From assembly GCA_032164295.1 (NCBI GenBank), contig JAJHTX010000012.1, forward strand, positions 248,001-312,000: 64,000 nucleotides of DNA. The letters are read 5' to 3'. Below the pieces are notes generated by a model. The model was not told the origin of the DNA and made no database searches. It saw nothing but the letters and a program-made list of their open reading frames with translations. A program made the translations under genes and the position numbers. The DNA comes from Inonotus obliquus. Lineage: Eukaryota; Basidiomycota; Agaricomycetes; Hymenochaetales; Hymenochaetaceae. Below, in pieces: positions 33,301-61,220 of this stretch. Within the stretch, counting starts at the first letter, position 1. Each line of letters opens with the position of its first letter.

Positions 33301-35686
33301 GTATGCTCTGTGGGACGATCGACCTGGCAGCATTCAATGCGCGGGCACGAACTAGCGAGAGTGGGGGTTGTCTTCGCATTGCGTTTTGATTCTGTAGACC
33401 TGAACCGCTGTGTCCTCCTGGTACTGATCCACCCGCAGGCATGCCGTAACGACTATTGGGATGTTGGAACCCAGGCCCACGAGTAAGATGGGAAGGACCA
33501 ACGCGAGGTGGGAGGTTAGGCGCAAGATGAGAGGGGGGGCGAACATGATTAGGATATGATTGAGACTGTGAACCGTGAGGGCGTTGACCGGGATGTTGAG
33601 GTAGTGGGTGGGCAAATGGTGCTCGGGGAGGTAAGGAGCCAGAAGGTTTTTGACCCAACGGTGTTTGACCATTCGGTGTAGACATTGTGCCACTTCCACT
33701 CACACCACTAGCAGTTACACCACCGTTCTTCTCCCTCCTTCTCTTCTCCTCATACAAACTCAGTACAAGTTTCAATAGCTTCCCCTCGCCATCAAAGACC
33801 ACCTTCACGCTATCCTTCTCCGCACCGGTAGCGCCCTTCGCAAAGCTTACAGTTGGGAGACCACCACCGATTGCTGCAAGCGTGAAGTTCTTCCCTTCCT
33901 CGCCAATAATGGCTTTCTTCGCCTCCTCATGGGCTGCAAACGTGATAGACGCGACGCCCATCTGCCCGCCTGTCACTCTGTCGAGCTCCCGCTCGAACGA
34001 GATAATAGACCCATACTTCTGAAAATGCTGCCGGATCTTTGCGGTTGGTGTTAGCTCGGAGAATCCGAAGACAAGGATGTTTGTTGGTGGTGGTGGTCCA
34101 GGAGTGTTGGAGTCATGCTATCATATCATCAAGCAAGAGTTGATAAAGGCGAGGCAATAACATGAAACATAACAACGCACCTCATACGAGGTCATATGCA
34201 TCTCGTTTTTAGCCTTCCCTACCTTATACCCAGCCTCCTTCCTAGGATCACTCGATCTCGCCTCCTTCTCACCTTTAACCGTCTCACCATCAAATCGTAC
34301 CAGTACTTTCCCCCCGTTCTTGATCCTATCCTCCCTACCAGCAGCTCGTACTGTATCCATAAGGCTCTTCATCTCCCCATACCTATCCTTATCACTAGAC
34401 GAGTCGAAAAGGAGACGGTAATCGCGATGACCTTCGGGAAGGTATGACGAACGTGGGGGTATAGGAGGAGGAGGATCCAATGAGTACAGTTTTTGCGACC
34501 GTTGGTGCCCATCAATATGTTTGTAAGTCACTGTAACACCTTCCGGTACGGGCGTTGGCGGACGCGGCGGGGAAGGAGAACGCCTTGATGTTCGGGTATG
34601 ATTAGGAGGCTCCCGATTCGACGGAGAGGGAGACCGAGGCTTTTTGTATGAAGCCAGGCGTCGGGGCAGCGCTGCAGTAAGCCGTGGATCCGGAGGTGGT
34701 AGAGGAGGAGGTGCAATCGACGGAGGTCTGGGTTCTAAGTGTTCCTCTCGCCCTCGTTCTGGAGCCTGATCCGGTTCATTTCTCGATGCCTTTGGCTCAA
34801 GAGGTGAATGTGGTAATGGTGGAGGCGCAAGCTTTGGCTCAAGAGGTGTGATAGGTGGTAGCTTGATACTGATAGGTGATCGGTCGCTTGGGACTTCGGC
34901 AGGTGGTGGAGGGGGAGGACTTCGAAGTGGCGGGGGACCTGATGGTGGAGGCGGCGTTGAAGGTGGTAATGGATAGTGATCACCATTTAGTAAATGAGGA
35001 GGGGTCGTAGAGGGAGGAGGCGGCGGTGGTGAAGATGATGGAGGTCGAGGACGCTCGGAGGGTGGAATATACGATGGCGGTTGACCTGGCGGAGGTGGTG
35101 GTGGTGGTGGTGGTGGTGGCTGTTTAGGAGGAGGCGGATTCGATGAACTTGTGCTTGCATTTGGAAGAGAGAATGATATCGGAGGCCGTGTAGGCACAGT
35201 CGGACTCCCGCTCATAGATCCGCTCGTACTCGTTCCTAACCCAGAACCATTAACACTAATCGTTACCTTGTTCAGCGCACTCGGTCCAGTCGGAGGCGGA
35301 CGTCCGTTCGGCCACTGGGAAGCAAGCGTCGCAGGTAGTGTAGGAGTAGACAACGGAGGTGTAGCTGCAAGTCCCTTCCCTTTAGGTCCCGAAGGTGGCA
35401 CCCGACCTACAGCAAACCCATTCACATATCCCTTTGCTGACGGCCCTGAAGGCGGCGGCCCACGTACACCCGAGATACCATTGACCAAGCTACGCGGCCC
35501 TGTCGGAGGAGGCGCGCCCGTACCAGCTGAGGTTGAGGATGAAGGAAGCCTGCTGCTCGATGCTGCGGGTTGGTAAGGGGGATGATGAGGGTGATGCTGA
35601 TGTGACGGCCCTGGTGCTCCTGGCCCTCCAAATCCTCCTGGAACGCGCAATGCTCGCGGTCCTTTCGGTGGCTCCTTCCCGGACAT
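30353..35686 (-). CDS. SET1: SET1 histone H3-K4 methyltransferase (COMPASS)
   Basis: A protein of roughly 1,600 residues in about five large exons. Exon 1 ([19 protein letters not shown]) is disordered and very Pro-rich, with an 11-Pro run near residue 195. Next is an RRM-like fold ([32 protein letters not shown]) and a SET-associated region ([18 protein letters not shown]) with an acidic, Lys-rich linker. The n-SET part ([17 protein letters not shown]) precedes the SET domain: [41 protein letters not shown] and EITYDYHF. It ends in the post-SET motif [13 protein letters not shown] with three Cys. All catalytic elements are present. It acts in the nucleus as the COMPASS catalytic subunit, methylating H3K4. 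Long plus-strand frames inside it are shadows. Confidence 0.93.
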
Positions 35687-37181
35687 CTAAAGTAGCGTTG
35701 AAAAATAGCTTGAAGAATAGCCGGTGTTATTTAAGGTTTTTATGTTGTATGTGATGCGTGAGCTCTGGTCGCCACGGCCCGTGCCTTTTCTTCGGAAAGC
35801 TCTACAGTAGCTTCACGCCTTGAGCCCTCAAGCCTTTGTGCTACGTTGCGCACGATGATTGACTATATTCGGACTTGAAGCACGTTAGAACAAAAGTGAT
35901 TGAAGAAGGGATATTTTGTGAAACTTCGCCGTCGTCGTTTACAACCACGACGTGACACTGGTACGTTATGCGAGAGACACTCACCCGTATCACAAACAAC
36001 TCCAGGATAGCCTTTGGTACACTTTACTGGACCAAAGCGAGAAGAGCTATGGCTGGATAGATAAAGAGTTGATGGAAAATTTGTCGTCGCGTTGTTGGTC
36101 GTCGTGGGTGGGCGTTGGTCAAGGCGTGACACGAACAAGGAGGACAATGAAACCACAACTTTGCGACCAGCTATCTTTTCGTAGTCCCAGTACCTCTTCT
36201 TCGTCAACACGGGGGTAATAACGAATGCAATGAAAAAGAGTAGGAGAGGATGGGATGTAGCCTTCTCGTCGTCGATGGGACGTGCAGTTGGACGTGACAC
36301 GCGGCACGGTTTTCGTCGCACAGACACGATTGCTCAACAGACAACAACAAAAGACAATTTTCTTCAGCCGTTATCCTCGTAGACGCACGACGAGCAAGGG
36401 GAGTAAGGCGAAGGAGGAAGGAAGATGATGATGGTTAAAGAGAGGATGGGCGCCTGAGGATGAGAGAAAAGAAAGGGCGTGCCACTCCGTCTCACTCAAT
36501 GTCCAGCAAACGACGACAAACAACATTCATTTCTGTCCTCCAACTCGTCGTTCTCCTTCTTGCTCTCTCACTCACCGCAGAACATTGGTATTTTATTCTC
36601 AGCGAAATACATACAACCTTATTTCTTCCTATTATCCTCTGTTACTCCTTCCCTTCTCTTTCTACCCCTATCTTCCCTCACTTCTTCTTCTCAAAAGTAA
36701 CATCTCCCACGGATGGTCAGTACTATCCATACATATGACCGGTGAACCTAAAGAAAGTCAGATGTGATGAATGTTACAATACTACGGTAATATCAACAGA
36801 AGAACCACAGAAAACTTACCTCACGGACACCATGCGTTCAGGAGGCAGTACTGGTACTTCTCTCTGATCGGATACCTTTGCGTTGCAGTGCACTGGCACG
36901 GTATTGCTTTGAGAGAAACCCGCCTTGTTCAACGCGTAAGTAAGTAAAAGGAATATATGGTGGAGAGTAGTGACTCAATCGGAAGTGACACTTGGGTCAC
37001 ATCTCTAGAACGTAATCAGCGACACAATATCACGTAATACCAGTCACGTGGTCTGACCGCGTCCACGACACGTACACGGGCGGAACTTGGATTTACCATC
37101 AGTGGCAGTGTTTGGTTCTACGGCACTTGCTCGTGCTCGCTTCTCTTCTTCCTCTTGGACTTCTACCACCACCATCTAGAA
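35687..37181. other. Intergenic, possible small membrane ORF
   Basis: About 1.5 kb between the divergent starts of SET1 and ALDH7. One minus-strand frame (35863-36327) starts MSVRRKPCRVSRPTARPID and contains a plausible membrane helix, LLLFFIAFVITPVL, followed by KKRYWDYEKIAG. This could be an exon of a small one-helix protein, but I found no convincing continuation. From 36480 to 36720 the plus strand is pyrimidine-rich and its frames look like composition artefacts. Confidence 0.3.
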
Positions 37182-55476: not shown

Positions 55477-55928
55477 GGCCAGTTTAGTGCAGGTACTTCA
55501 GGCTTCAGAGGATCAAAGAACGGGGTAGTGAGAGAGAGTTCACTTGATATGGCAGGAGGCGATATGAGTATGACACTGGCATCATATACGTAGATACAGG
55601 CCGAACGCCGAGTGAATCACTGAGCATGTCATACAGTGATCAGCAATCAGCAGAAATGAGATCTGCATTAGGTGCCCATAACGCCGACCTCCGGGATCGA
55701 CAACCCCGATCGGATAGACGCAAATCTATATCTGTCCAGTAAGCAATGCCTCGGTCATAGGGGTTCATCCCCGAGGTGATTACAGAGTATAGTAAATAGA
55801 AGAGTGTACTGTAGTCCATCGAAGAGGAAGAAATAGTTCCCACCAAGCACGTGAATCTAATCTTATCATGTGCGCATGCGCTTTGCCGCCAGCAGCAAGA
55901 TTTAAATCTTCTGCGTAGAGCGATATCA

Positions 55929-56076
55929 GCAATGAATGGAAGGTGTGTTTTATTCCGACGTATGCTATCACTCACCATCAAGGCTCATCAATAGACTTGC
56001 GGATGTGTCGATGACTGGGTAGGAGTATCGTGCGGTGCTATCAGCACAGACGATCAGCCCCAGAAGGCTACGTTCA
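55929..56076. repeat. Direct repeat, copy A (pairs with 56304-56456)
   Basis: Begins CAATGGAAGGTGTG-like and ends GGCTACGTTCA. It shares most positions with copy B, including the blocks TTGCGGATGTGT, GATGA-C-GGGTAGGAG, TATCAGCACAGACGA and AAGGCTACGTTCA. Several indels and substitutions show the duplication is old. It lies about 0.6 kb upstream of the dehydrogenase ATG. Confidence 0.75.
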
Positions 56077-56303
56077 GTGAGAATAAAGCCAATGCGGGGC
56101 ATTGTGCACAGATTGCTTACCTTTCTTGCTTCCCAGATGATGCAATCCTCTCAATGGCAATGGAAAATGCGCACAACGCACAACGTGACCTACCGCCTGC
56201 GTCAATAAGATATGAGAGAAGAGCCAAGAGCCCCTGAGGCACACAGATGGAAATTCAGCAGTCATCTTCCTCATCACTAAGTACCAGGCGTGTGGAATAA
56301 TCT

Positions 56304-56456
56304 CAACAATGGAAGGTGTGAGGTGCATTTATTCCAAAGTATACTACAACTCACCTTTTAAGATCATCAATAATGAATTGCGGATGTGTTGATGACCGGG
56401 TAGGAGCATAGCGGCGTTATCAGCACAGACGACCAGACCCCTTAAGGCTACGTTCA
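56304..56456. repeat. Direct repeat, copy B (pairs with 55929-56076)
   Basis: The second copy of the same segment, in the same orientation, offset by about 375-380 bp. It lies about 200 bp upstream of the dehydrogenase start codon, so it may include promoter sequence. Confidence 0.75.
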
Positions 56457-57074
56457 TACTTTACAAGAGAGTGAGCGCGGTGCCAGTGCGACGTGTCGTG
56501 CGGGATTGTCAACACATATACTATATGGCTGCACTCGTACCATCGTACTGTACGATACACTGCGGGTCTAAGTCTCTGAACTTTCACCATAAGTACCATA
56601 TCTAAAAGCATTATATTGTTACTGGGTTGCACTTCACCATCAAGCCCCTGCTATGCTTATGCCTACTTCCAACGTAACAGTGCCCGTCGGTGTGGAGGCT
56701 GCCCTTCACGCCGCATCAGACCCTTCAGTCACTCCGAGACCAACTCTTTTTCATAACGAGTTCTCTCTCGAGGGACGTGTCGCTGTCATCACCGGCGGCG
56801 GTCGCGGACTCGGACTTGAGATGGCCGAAGCACTAGCTGAGGCAGGTGCTACCGTCTACTGTATCTCGCGAAGTGCAACTCCAAACGACACTTGGAAAGC
56901 CACCCAAGCGTATGTGGCCGGACTTGGACTCGCTGAAGGTGTCCGGCTGGAGTACAAGAGCGCTGATATCTCGAACCATATTGCGATCGGAGCTGCAATA
57001 GAAGAAATAGCCGACAAGGAAGGTCGTCTCGATATCTGCATCGCCAACGCCGGGCTGCTGGAAGCAACTCCCGC

Positions 57075-57082
57075 GTTGGAGC
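57075..57082. repeat. Left target-site duplication, GTTGGAGC
   Basis: An eight-base direct repeat immediately outside the left end of the hAT element. It is identical to 59162-59169. Eight bases is the length made by hAT transposases. Confidence 0.95.
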
Positions 57083-57099
57083 TAGGGTTCCGCAGCGTA
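57083..57099 (+). repeat. hAT left terminal inverted repeat
   Basis: TAGGGTTCCGCAGCGTA, 17 of 17 bases complementary to the right end at 59145-59161. Beyond this the two ends diverge. Confidence 0.95.
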
Positions 57100-57685
57100 G
57101 CGTAAAGTACGGAAATGGGCCGTACGTATACGTAACGCTCTGTAATCGTATGGAGGAATAGGACTGACTTTACGGACCTGTATTGCACGGTCCGTGTTCC
57201 GCATCAAGAAATCCAAGTTTGGGCGTAAACGACCGCATACGGCCTATACGACATACGGTCCTCCTCGTTCTCTCCCACATACCCCTATCTTCTCGTTGGC
57301 GTGTCCGCAAGGCTGGGGTCACTGTGAATGCTCTCAACAGGTAAGTAGTAGCTTGTTTATTGAACAGAATGGACGTTGTTTTACTGATATCACTCCCCAT
57401 TGAAGATCAGGTATCCATCATGCCGTGTTCACATCATTATCTTCTGGTCATCCTGATTGCACGTTGCAGACCCAGTCTTTGGTAGTAAGGGGTATTGATA
57501 TATGTAGCTGGGAGGTGCGTACTCACATCACACAGTCCACATGCACTGGATGCTCATAACATATTGCATTGCAGAACATGAGTCTTGGAGAGACAGTGCA
57601 CGTCGCATTGCAGAACACGAGCCTCAGTCAAAAAACACTATTTTTAGGTACTTATACGGTATTAGTGTAGGTATTCAAGGACATA

Positions 57686-58964
57686 TTGGAATCGAATAGT
57701 TCGACACTTCTCATCACTTGCCGCTCGGTCAACGATGGACTTCAACTTGTCTCTCACGCAAAACGTAGAAACTGCGATGAGGTTGATGAAAGTAACATCG
57801 TCTCTGGAAAACGTCCTCGTATTCTCTCATTTAAGCTTCGAGGAGTCGACCAACCTACTGGACCGAGCAAGATACAAACTTCGAACCGCTTCGATGTTCT
57901 ATCTTATGTGGAGGACGGCGCTGATGAATTTCGGAACAGTGACTGTGACACAGAGTTCAACCCAGATGTGGTCTCCTGTGATGTTAGCGAGGACGGTGAA
58001 GAACCAGATGACACTTCACAGGAGTGTACTTTTTGTTTCCTTCTAATTCTCTATTTAATTGTAATTTTTTTAGGCTAGTCTCGATTTACCAAGAATGACA
58101 GTCGTCTCAAGAAAGGTCAAGAGGATACAGAAAGTAAGTACTCGATTAATCGACCTATGTGTCCTACACCATCTTAAGGAACTACCATCCGACTCACCTT
58201 CCTTTCTTCGAAAAGGTCTTACTGCTGCACACCGCAAACTCTCAGACTACTTCACTCTTTTCAATACCTCGCCATTCTTTATGTGGGCTGCCCGTGAGTC
58301 TAACTGACCCTTCTGCTCGCTCAACTTGATACTAATCATAATAATCAGTCCTACATCCACGTATTTCATATACAAAGCTTCGGGATGATGCAGAAGGAGA
58401 CCCCACCTTGCTTCAACTTATTGAAGACTCAAGGTCGTCACTTGGACATCGCTTTGCAGCTTGGTATCCTTCAAGTACTTCAGCAAAGGACCAGAGCCAT
58501 CGAAACGTTGTAATCACTAAGGGTGCAAATATGGATCCTGTCCAAAACGATGATGCTCTGTCCCCGTCCAAGAGCATGATATTTGCTTTCATGGCAGGTT
58601 ATGGCAATGAGGAGGATACCAGTCCATTACGAACTCGTCACTTACTTCAGTATGAAACGCGAAAAGTCTTGGGATGTTGGAGAACCAATTCCATGGTGGT
58701 CCGCACACCATGCTCAGTTTCCTCACTTGTCAAAGTTTGCGTGTGAGATCCATGCCATTCCAGGTGAGTCGAAAACTTTCTTCTTGACATAATAATATGT
58801 AATTGATGATCTTTGCAGGCTCCTCAGTCACCCGTAGAACGTGTATTCTCAGGAGGCAGAGATACTATTGCACTCCGTCGTGCCGTCTGGGGTCAGAGAC
58901 CATCACAACCCTTATTCTGGTGAAACAATGGCTACGTTCGAAAGACAGATCACACTCTTCTTAA
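57686..58964 (+). pseudogene. hAT transposase remnant, C-terminal part, frameshifted
   Basis: A first frame (57686-58078) encodes a basic and acidic low-similarity region (KRRNCDEVDESN, SGKRPRILSFKL). From about 58190 the hAT catalytic tail is visible: FLRKGLTAAHRKLSDYFTLF, then after an intron LHPRISYTKLRDDAEGDP and SLGHRFAAWYPSS. The frame then shifts near 58600-58625 into VTYFSMKREKSWDVGEPIPW, WWSAHHAQFPHLSKFACEI and IPG, the hAT C-terminal dimerisation domain. After the last intron the frame changes again between GSSV and PVERVFSGGRDTIALRRAVW. No BED zinc finger and no N-terminal catalytic Asp region were found. It is therefore truncated and carries at least two frame disruptions; an unannotated intron could explain the first. 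Confidence 0.8.
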
Positions 58965-59144
58965 AGCATCTCTCTTATTTATTGTTATTATATTGTGTAC
59001 TTCCTTCTTGGTGTCGTATATACGGCGTATTGCCGTATACTCCCGACGCGTTTCCGTAGCTCACCCCGAAATAAAAAATACGGAGCGTAAAGCACGGATC
59101 GTAATCCGTACTGTGTCTTGTCTTTACGCGCGTACCTGTATACG

Positions 59145-59161
59145 TACGCTGCGGAACCCTA
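59145..59161 (-). repeat. hAT right terminal inverted repeat
   Basis: TACGCTGCGGAACCCTA, the perfect complement of the left end. Confidence 0.95.
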
Positions 59162-59169
59162 GTTGGAGC
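59162..59169. repeat. Right target-site duplication, GTTGGAGC
   Basis: Identical to 57075-57082. The frame of the interrupted dehydrogenase resumes in it. Confidence 0.95.
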
Positions 59170-59743
59170 TTTCGGCTGAGCAGTTTGGAGAAATCCTAGA
59201 CGTGAACGTGAATGGGACCTTCTATACCGCACATGCCGCAGCCAAGCAGATGCAGAAGCACGGGAATCATGGAAGCATTGTGATCGTTTCGTCCATCGCG
59301 GGGCATGGCACTTTGCGGGGTCTTACATCTCTTCCTTATTGCACGAGCAAGGCGGCGGGAATACAAATGGCGCGATCTCTAGCGGCCGAACTCGCCCCTC
59401 ACGGGATCAGGGTCAACTCCCTTTCCCCCGGTTATTGCGTTACGGAGTAAGTCATTTCCCAGACTTTTCTCGATGGATCGTAACTTTGTGTAGTATGATT
59501 AAACCTACCGTCATTGACGCGTCGCTTGGGTCTATGGTTGCGAGTCAGAACCCCCTAGGACGAATGGGCAAACCTTCCGAGGTGAGAGGCGCTGCTGTCT
59601 GGCTCGCGTCGGATGCTTCGTCTTTCTGTACGGGTAGCGAGTAAGTGGCGTGACGTAGTACACGACGTCTTGTGCTGAGCTTTACTGAAACGTTTACGTT
59701 GTTATATAGTGTTGTCGTAGACGGTGGACATTGTTCGTGGTAA

Positions 59744-61220
59744 TTGGTAATGGTAGTTCTGTGAAGCGGCGGCGCGAATAATAGATCGACGCATATGTTA
59801 CTTTCGCCCTCCCTGTCAATCGGCAATCGACGCGATTCACCCATTCACCCATTCACCCATTCACGTTTTAAATGTATAATCTGATAGATGTGAATGTAAA
59901 TACAAGTACCGGTACGGATTGGATGAGTCGAGTCGATAAGCGGGACTGAATGAATAAAGGACTAAAGGACCGAATGAAAAATAGACAAAGTTAAGTAAGT
60001 AAGTAAGTAGGGAAGGAAGGAAGTGAAAGGCGAAAGATGAAAGAAAGGTGTATGTATGTAAATGCTATATAACGGAGATGGATGGAGGTTGAGGTTGGTG
60101 TATGAAGTATGGAGGATGGGATTCGACGATTCGACGATTCGAGCGCATGAGGATTCGGGGAAGATGTTCGTCGCACGTCGAAATATCCACAAACTCAAAC
60201 GTAATCGCAAACTCAAACTCGAAACTCGAAACGCAAACGAAAAAAAAAGAAGAAAGATGATGAAAGGAAGAATGAAAATTTCCAATTTCCAATTTCCAAT
60301 ATACCGACACGGAGACAGGTAAGAGACAGGTAAGAGACAGGTAAGAGACGGAGACGGAGGGAGAGACAGGGACAGAGACAGGTAAGAGACAGAGACAGAG
60401 ACAGGGACGGACGGAGACGAGAACAGACAGGAAAGAGAAAGAGAAAGAGACAGAGACGAAAACGGAGACAGAGACAAAAAAAAACAGAGAAGGTGTTCCT
60501 GAGAAGGTGAGAAGGTGTTCTTGAGAAGGTGAGAAGGTGAGATAGCACGAACCACGAACCACGAACCACGAAAATGGAAAACGGAAAAAGAAAAAGAAAT
60601 GTACAGACAAAAACAAAATAGTTCGACAGATAGTTTGCTAGATAGAGGAAGACAGATGCATGAACAACCGGATACGTAAATGTGAAGTTGTGAAGTTGTG
60701 AGTAGAAATTGCAGTTGTCGTCGAGTACTAAGTCGAGTAGGTGAGGAGAGGAGAGAGGAGAGAGGAGAGAGGAGAGGAAAATGAAGGTGAGCGAGATGCA
60801 TTTGTCAATGACCGGGAGATGGAACGAGAAAGGAAGAGATACACAGATCTAGAGGGACGGGGTAAAGAGTAAAGAAGGGAGGTGACAGAAGTCAGGAATT
60901 CAGGAATCCAGGAATCCAGGAGGAATCATGTACAGTTGAAAGAAAGACGATAAAGGCCAAAGACAAAAGACATAGCTCACACTATACCGATACTCTTGTC
61001 TTCATCTCTCCAGAGAACTCTAAACGTGTACAACATAGCTAGCAAGGGAAGGGAGAGCGAAAGCGCCATGATACCATAAGAAAATATAAATATGTATACA
61101 ACATTTTCTTTCTCTCGAATGAAGACTCGAAGGGTAGGTCAAACAATTCCAAGTCCCAGATAAACAGACCCCAGGTTCACCTTCTCATTCGTTACGTTAC
61201 CCCCCTACTCTTCTCTTCTC
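59744..61220. other. Intergenic region with polypurine tracts and tandem repeats
   Basis: About 1.5 kb between the dehydrogenase stop and the stop of the convergent membrane-protein gene. Tandem units include CCATTCAC at 59836-59864, GACAGGTAA at 60312-60350, GAGACA-rich runs to 60480, GAGAAGGT units at 60487-60540 and GAGAGGA units at 60739-60778. The plus strand is mostly purine from 60230 to 60600, so the very long minus-strand Ser/Leu/Phe frames here are artefacts of composition. Part is probably the 3' UTR of the convergent gene. Confidence 0.5.
60230..60600. repeat. Polypurine tract with nested short tandem repeats
   Basis: Dominated by GA, GAGACA, GACAGGTAA and GAGAAGGTGA units on the plus strand. 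It is low complexity and non-coding. Confidence 0.75.

Follow-up and report, generated by a model that had tools for sequence, protein, structure and literature searches.

A non-autonomous hAT element within an SDR gene of Inonotus obliquus

The closest precedent for the locus described here is a group of hAT elements in the mushroom Marasmius oreades, MarorhAT-10 and MarorhAT-4, -11 and -12, as presented in excerpts of PMC9674265. The group includes a 3,396-bp hAT that carries a transposase domain and non-autonomous relatives, of 597–631 bp, that are without that domain; one copy of MarorhAT-10 is given for nucleotype A and four for nucleotype B. New insertions are reported from monokaryotic protoclones and single-spore isolates, and excisions were observed too (excerpts of PMC9674265). 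In maize, the Ds-del elements are described as simple internal deletions of the 4.6-kb autonomous Ac that are moved in trans and are mutagenic (PMC3260210, in the part consulted).

Here, we analyze an insertion in a 64,000-nucleotide stretch of the Inonotus obliquus assembly GCA_032164295.1 (contig JAJHTX010000012.1; hereafter the window). As in the excerpted account of M. oreades (PMC9674265), a mushroom hAT of a few kilobases occurs together with shorter relatives that have similar inverted repeats and are missing an internal section. Unlike the short M. oreades elements, the element in the window is 2.1 kb long, retains transposase remnants and is active only by deduction, and the likeness is one of architecture rather than of compared inverted-repeat sequences. 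With Ds-del it shares the status of an internal deletion derivative and 8-bp duplications; this likeness is structural, not drawn from sequence comparison, and the repeats are 11 bp long in Ac/Ds versus 17 bp here (PMC3260210, same part).

Our main reading, to which we assign a probability of about 0.93, is that a 2.1-kb non-autonomous hAT element, a deletion derivative of a 4.4-kb family, was moved in trans into the first exon of a short-chain dehydrogenase (SDR) gene, leaving a null allele. An SDR gene split by a defective hAT is an ordinary, well-understood type of mutation, and the locus adds one more case to a kind already described. It shows cleanly how a metabolic gene of a mushroom can be disrupted by a non-autonomous hAT, and the insertion is a ready marker for typing filled versus empty sites.

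Element, target site and interrupted gene

A first-pass annotation of the window had proposed a recent hAT insertion in an otherwise intact gene at 56653–59743. That span is exact, and the insertion itself is borne out by a relative carrying PF05699, by bounded copies elsewhere in the genome and by two lesion-free gene halves. The element and its target site are as follows.

57075..57082, + strand: 8-bp target-site duplication GTTGGAGC, left copy
57083..59161, + strand: hAT element, non-autonomous, 2,079 bp
57083..57099, + strand: left terminal inverted repeat, 17 bp
59145..59161, + strand: right terminal inverted repeat, 17 bp
59162..59169, + strand: 8-bp target-site duplication GTTGGAGC, right copy

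Both the duplication and the inverted repeats are perfect, as annotated. The repeats (TAGGGTTCCGCAGCGTA) match at 17 of 17 positions, and an apparent 18-bp match arises because bases of both target copies next to the repeats happen to be complementary. These boundaries are not due to chance, given that the same repeats delimit 20 further family loci in the genome (exactly at both ends in 12 of them, with one to three changes in all in the other 8) and that each has its own, different, perfect 8-bp duplication. In the hAT superfamily the terminal inverted repeats are short and begin with YA(G)GG; the repeats here fit that start, and the duplication has the 8-bp length of hAT.

The gene is arranged around the element in four pieces.

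56653..57082, + strand: SDR gene exon 1, 5' part (PF00106, 6e-15), with the left target-site copy at its end
57103..57105, + strand: TAA closing the interrupted SDR frame within the element
59170..59446, + strand: SDR gene exon 1, remainder past the insertion (PF00106, 1.2e-23 for 59163–59447)
59494..59640, + strand: SDR gene, second exon when counted without the insertion
59710..59743, + strand: SDR gene exon 3, the last, with stop TAA

Joined over the empty site, the pieces form three exons and an 888-nt open frame with no internal stop, so the annotated claim of an exact frame holds. The two introns are GT..AG, of 47 and 69 nt, and both of the gene's donors, like both donors of the paralogue described below, are GTAAGT or GTAAGC. 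Further inactivating mutations in the halves, which the annotation had named as evidence that would count against it, were looked for in the 888-nt frame, and there are none.

Both flanks of the insertion hit PF00106 in Pfam, and the gene contains the motifs TGGGRGLG, DVNVNG, VSS and YCTSK. Classical SDRs are marked by TGxxxGxG and by a catalytic Asn-Ser-Tyr-Lys set, which in this gene lies in 59170–59446. The domain matches in both halves, together with the motifs, identify the gene as a classical SDR. Among the matches listed, the closest relatives with a name belong to Sanghuangporus and Fomitiporia, in keeping with a host in or near the Hymenochaetaceae. Fungal SDRs from these genera and from Phellopilus, entered as ‘NAD-binding protein’ or ‘hypothetical protein’, likewise carry PF00106; in the rows compared they are 51–65% identical and, unlike the gene here, uninterrupted. 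The label ‘sorbose reductase’ is attached to remoter matches. The paralogue and 10 database homologues align across the site without an insertion, although the homologues are predicted proteins, in which an insertion called as an intron would be invisible.

The 2.1-kb element inserted into exon 1 and produced the 8-bp duplication, presumably by cut-and-paste movement because it belongs to a hAT family. As the sequence stands, the interrupted frame crosses the inverted repeat into TAA at 57103–57105 and encodes 150 amino acids. With a stop within 23 bases of the element's left end, the product would be a fragment holding the nucleotide-binding half only, and hence the allele in this nucleus is probably null.

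Upstream of the gene lies a direct duplication of about 110 bp (55949–56061 and 56328–56440, 380 bp apart, 78–89% identical by pieces). No dispersed repeat was found in the 1 kb upstream of the gene (55600–56640), which has a single match in the genome.

The hAT family and its internal deletion

A nucleotide search across the assembly yielded at least 82 matches, which were merged by hand into 37 loci including that of the window. The family thus comprises at least about 37 loci that fall into several size classes, and its youngest copies are nearly identical. The other 36 loci were retrieved, two of which (L058 and L059) are distant relatives at 71–72% identity. A boundary scan that allowed up to five mismatches in each repeat and up to two in the 8-bp duplication delimited 21 of the 36 in addition to the window copy, with zero mismatches in every duplication. 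Of the 21, L053 proved to be an adjacent element whose repeats are variant, which leaves 20 family copies plus that of the window; 15 of the 36 were unbounded. Among these, L054 is flanked by identical 8-base copies but escaped the scan because its terminal bases deviate from the pattern.

Two copies, L031 and L032, are 4,443 bp each and 99.6% identical. One of seven frame pieces of L031 contains PF05699, the hAT dimerisation domain (4.3e-06, 26.9 bits versus a cut-off of 21.4). Pfam matches to the seven pieces, taken as continuous frames, did not include the BED zinc finger and RNase-H-like catalytic core of hAT transposases, and one L031 transposase piece gave no match in the PDB. The PF05699 relative and the 20 copies with perfect 8-bp duplications together assign the element to hAT. 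Two further features of the window copy concern its coding capacity.

58165..58166, + strand: junction where 2,259 bp of the 4,443-bp L031 and L032 are missing, also present in L025–L030
58408..58743, + strand: transposase-exon remnant, no longer in frame; in L031 this exon carries PF05699

The deletion junction, taken from BLAST because MAFFT misplaced about 65 bases there, is blunt and common to six of the 36 retrieved loci (L025–L030). Most simply, a single deletion event would have produced a shortened form that spread afterwards. Within the dimerisation-exon remnant, the window copy also has a 2-bp deletion after 58628 that is absent from L025, L026, L028 and L029, and its four frame pieces have no hAT match in Pfam. 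With the same ends as the longer copy, an internal deletion and a junction repeated across loci, the element is non-autonomous. Its own transposase region lacks more than 2 kb and is frameshifted, and we therefore infer that the transposase of another copy moved it. No near-identical source copy was found in the assembly; the nearest relatives are 97.0–97.6% identical over aligned bases. Neither the deletion-derivative status of the element nor the intact SDR paralogue had been part of the first-pass annotation.

Other family copies also lie beside recognizable frames. A reverse-transcriptase frame (PF00078; L031:2-1000) adjoins the 4.4-kb copy, which apparently sits inside or beside a retroelement, and a WD40 open frame (PF00400; L050:2444-2887) adjoins another copy, so a second gene may be interrupted. 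These were the only matches when ten flanking frames from eight loci were searched against Pfam; the other eight frames gave none. A preference for inserting into coding DNA was considered and rejected because open frames at the sites resemble those at random points. Their median length was 336 nt at 22 sites versus 363 nt at random window points; frames of at least 300 nt occurred at 15 of 22 sites versus a random fraction of 0.62, and of at least 450 nt at 8 of 22 versus 0.37. The 22 sites include the neighbouring element L053, and the random control comes from this window only.

Age of the insertion

Private divergence was scored at columns with an agreeing base in four or all five of the closest relatives (L025–L029). 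The window copy has 26 private changes in 2,009 columns (1.3%), with a tree branch of 1.5%. If this divergence is neutral, the insertion would be no older than 1.3–1.5% private divergence, as an upper bound. The bound counts any time spent at an earlier site, and the insertion itself may therefore be much younger. The youngest copies have private divergences of 0.05–0.25% (1 of 2,009 columns in L028, 4 of 2,009 in L029 and 5 of 1,978 in L026), whereas L025 (24 of 2,000) and the partial L027 (14 of 1,757) are closer to the window copy. The far lower divergence of L028, L029 and L026 indicates that the family moved later than the upper bound for the window copy. L028 and L029, both of the 2.1-kb form, occupy different sites with their own perfect duplications and are 99.8% identical over aligned bases, a sign of such later movement. 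The annotated term ‘recent’ applies only in a loose sense, as an upper bound, and the copy is not among the youngest in the genome.

The annotation had also taken the intact halves to mean that too little time has passed for decay. The gene has accumulated no other lesion since the insertion, which is compatible with that view but weak evidence for it. Were the gene neutral over the whole branch (1.3–1.5%), the probability of finding no lesion would be 0.09–0.41 depending on the indel rate: 0.36–0.41 with the rate of this copy and 0.09–0.22 with an assumed 0.10–0.15 indels per substitution. Intactness of the gene therefore fits a recent event without proving it. The perfect 8-bp duplication was set aside as a route to an age; it has little dating power because every copy bounded by the scan has a perfect one, clearly diverged copies included. 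CpG or RIP-type decay was considered and rejected; of the 26 private changes, 5 are CpG transitions.

Gene function, paralogue and other readings

The best match of the SDR gene elsewhere in the assembly is an uninterrupted paralogue on the minus strand of contig C4 (about L061:310-1307), with 80% protein identity and the same exon borders, within 1.4 kb of the contig end. Between the two, dN is 0.108 and dS 0.565, giving a dN/dS of about 0.19, with little difference between the halves (0.21 and 0.18). Up to 20 of the best homologues define 116 columns with conservation of at least 90%; the SDR gene deviates from 10 of these and the paralogue from 9, of which 6 are shared. The private departures, 4 in the gene and 3 in the paralogue (one of them merely a missing start residue, leaving 2 substitutions), are too few to be informative. 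The paralogue has Asp in place of Asn (N154D), with AAG replacing the NAG motif, and the SDR gene keeps the Asn. We take N154 to be the catalytic Asn of classical SDRs, and hence the paralogue may not be a full substitute. Of 120 listed database proteins, the top one reaches 76% identity with the paralogue, and the list therefore includes neither gene of this species.

The loss might be tolerated through the paralogue and further SDR relatives or, alternatively, because another nucleus or strain retains an intact gene. Each of these has a version that is compatible with the main reading. The presence of an uninterrupted 80%-identical paralogue and of further relatives in the genome would suit a gene that was already dispensable when the element arrived, making the insertion near neutral. 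However, earlier lesions are absent and the dN/dS of about 0.19 suggests that the gene was under constraint through most of its past, and we rate prior dispensability a little short of an even chance. We are more tentative, at clearly less than even odds, about an intact allele in the other nucleus of a dikaryon that shelters the null. Such an arrangement is plausible for a basidiomycete. The assembly, which shows one haplotype at three probed places, speaks neither for nor against it, and the strain that was sequenced is possibly a monokaryon. Probes 34100–36400, 59170–59900 and 55600–56640 each matched their own locus a single time in the assembly of 36.07 Mb, the second additionally matching the paralogue at 80%. 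Nucleotypes of one strain do differ in hAT copy number in M. oreades (excerpts of PMC9674265).

A reading that would instead replace the null allele is that splicing removes the element like an intron, from a donor in the left inverted repeat (57097) to an acceptor at or just past the right end, so that the gene still works. Eight GT-AG combinations keep the frame free of stops, all from this donor (acceptors include 59162, 59168, 59180 and 59183), and that with 59183 changes the length by 0 nt; maize Ds1 offers a precedent for intron-like removal (titles in the reference list of PMC3260210). On the other hand, 360 bases of acceptor space were searched, and chance frame-keeping pairs are expected, as judged by reasoning rather than from a shuffled control. 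Fungal donors have a consensus G at +5. The donor AGC|GTAGCG lacks it, unlike the GTAAGT and GTAAGC of the gene and its paralogue, and the intron would be about 2.07 kb, whereas those native to the gene measure 47 and 69 nt. Because of the weak donor and the 2-kb length we consider splicing very improbable; if true, it would mean a fungal DNA transposon acting as an intron in a working SDR gene.

Elsewhere in the genome, at C3:181001-191000 (L062), four more SDR relatives with 55–59% identity to the N-terminal half are grouped within some 6 kb, apparently as an array.
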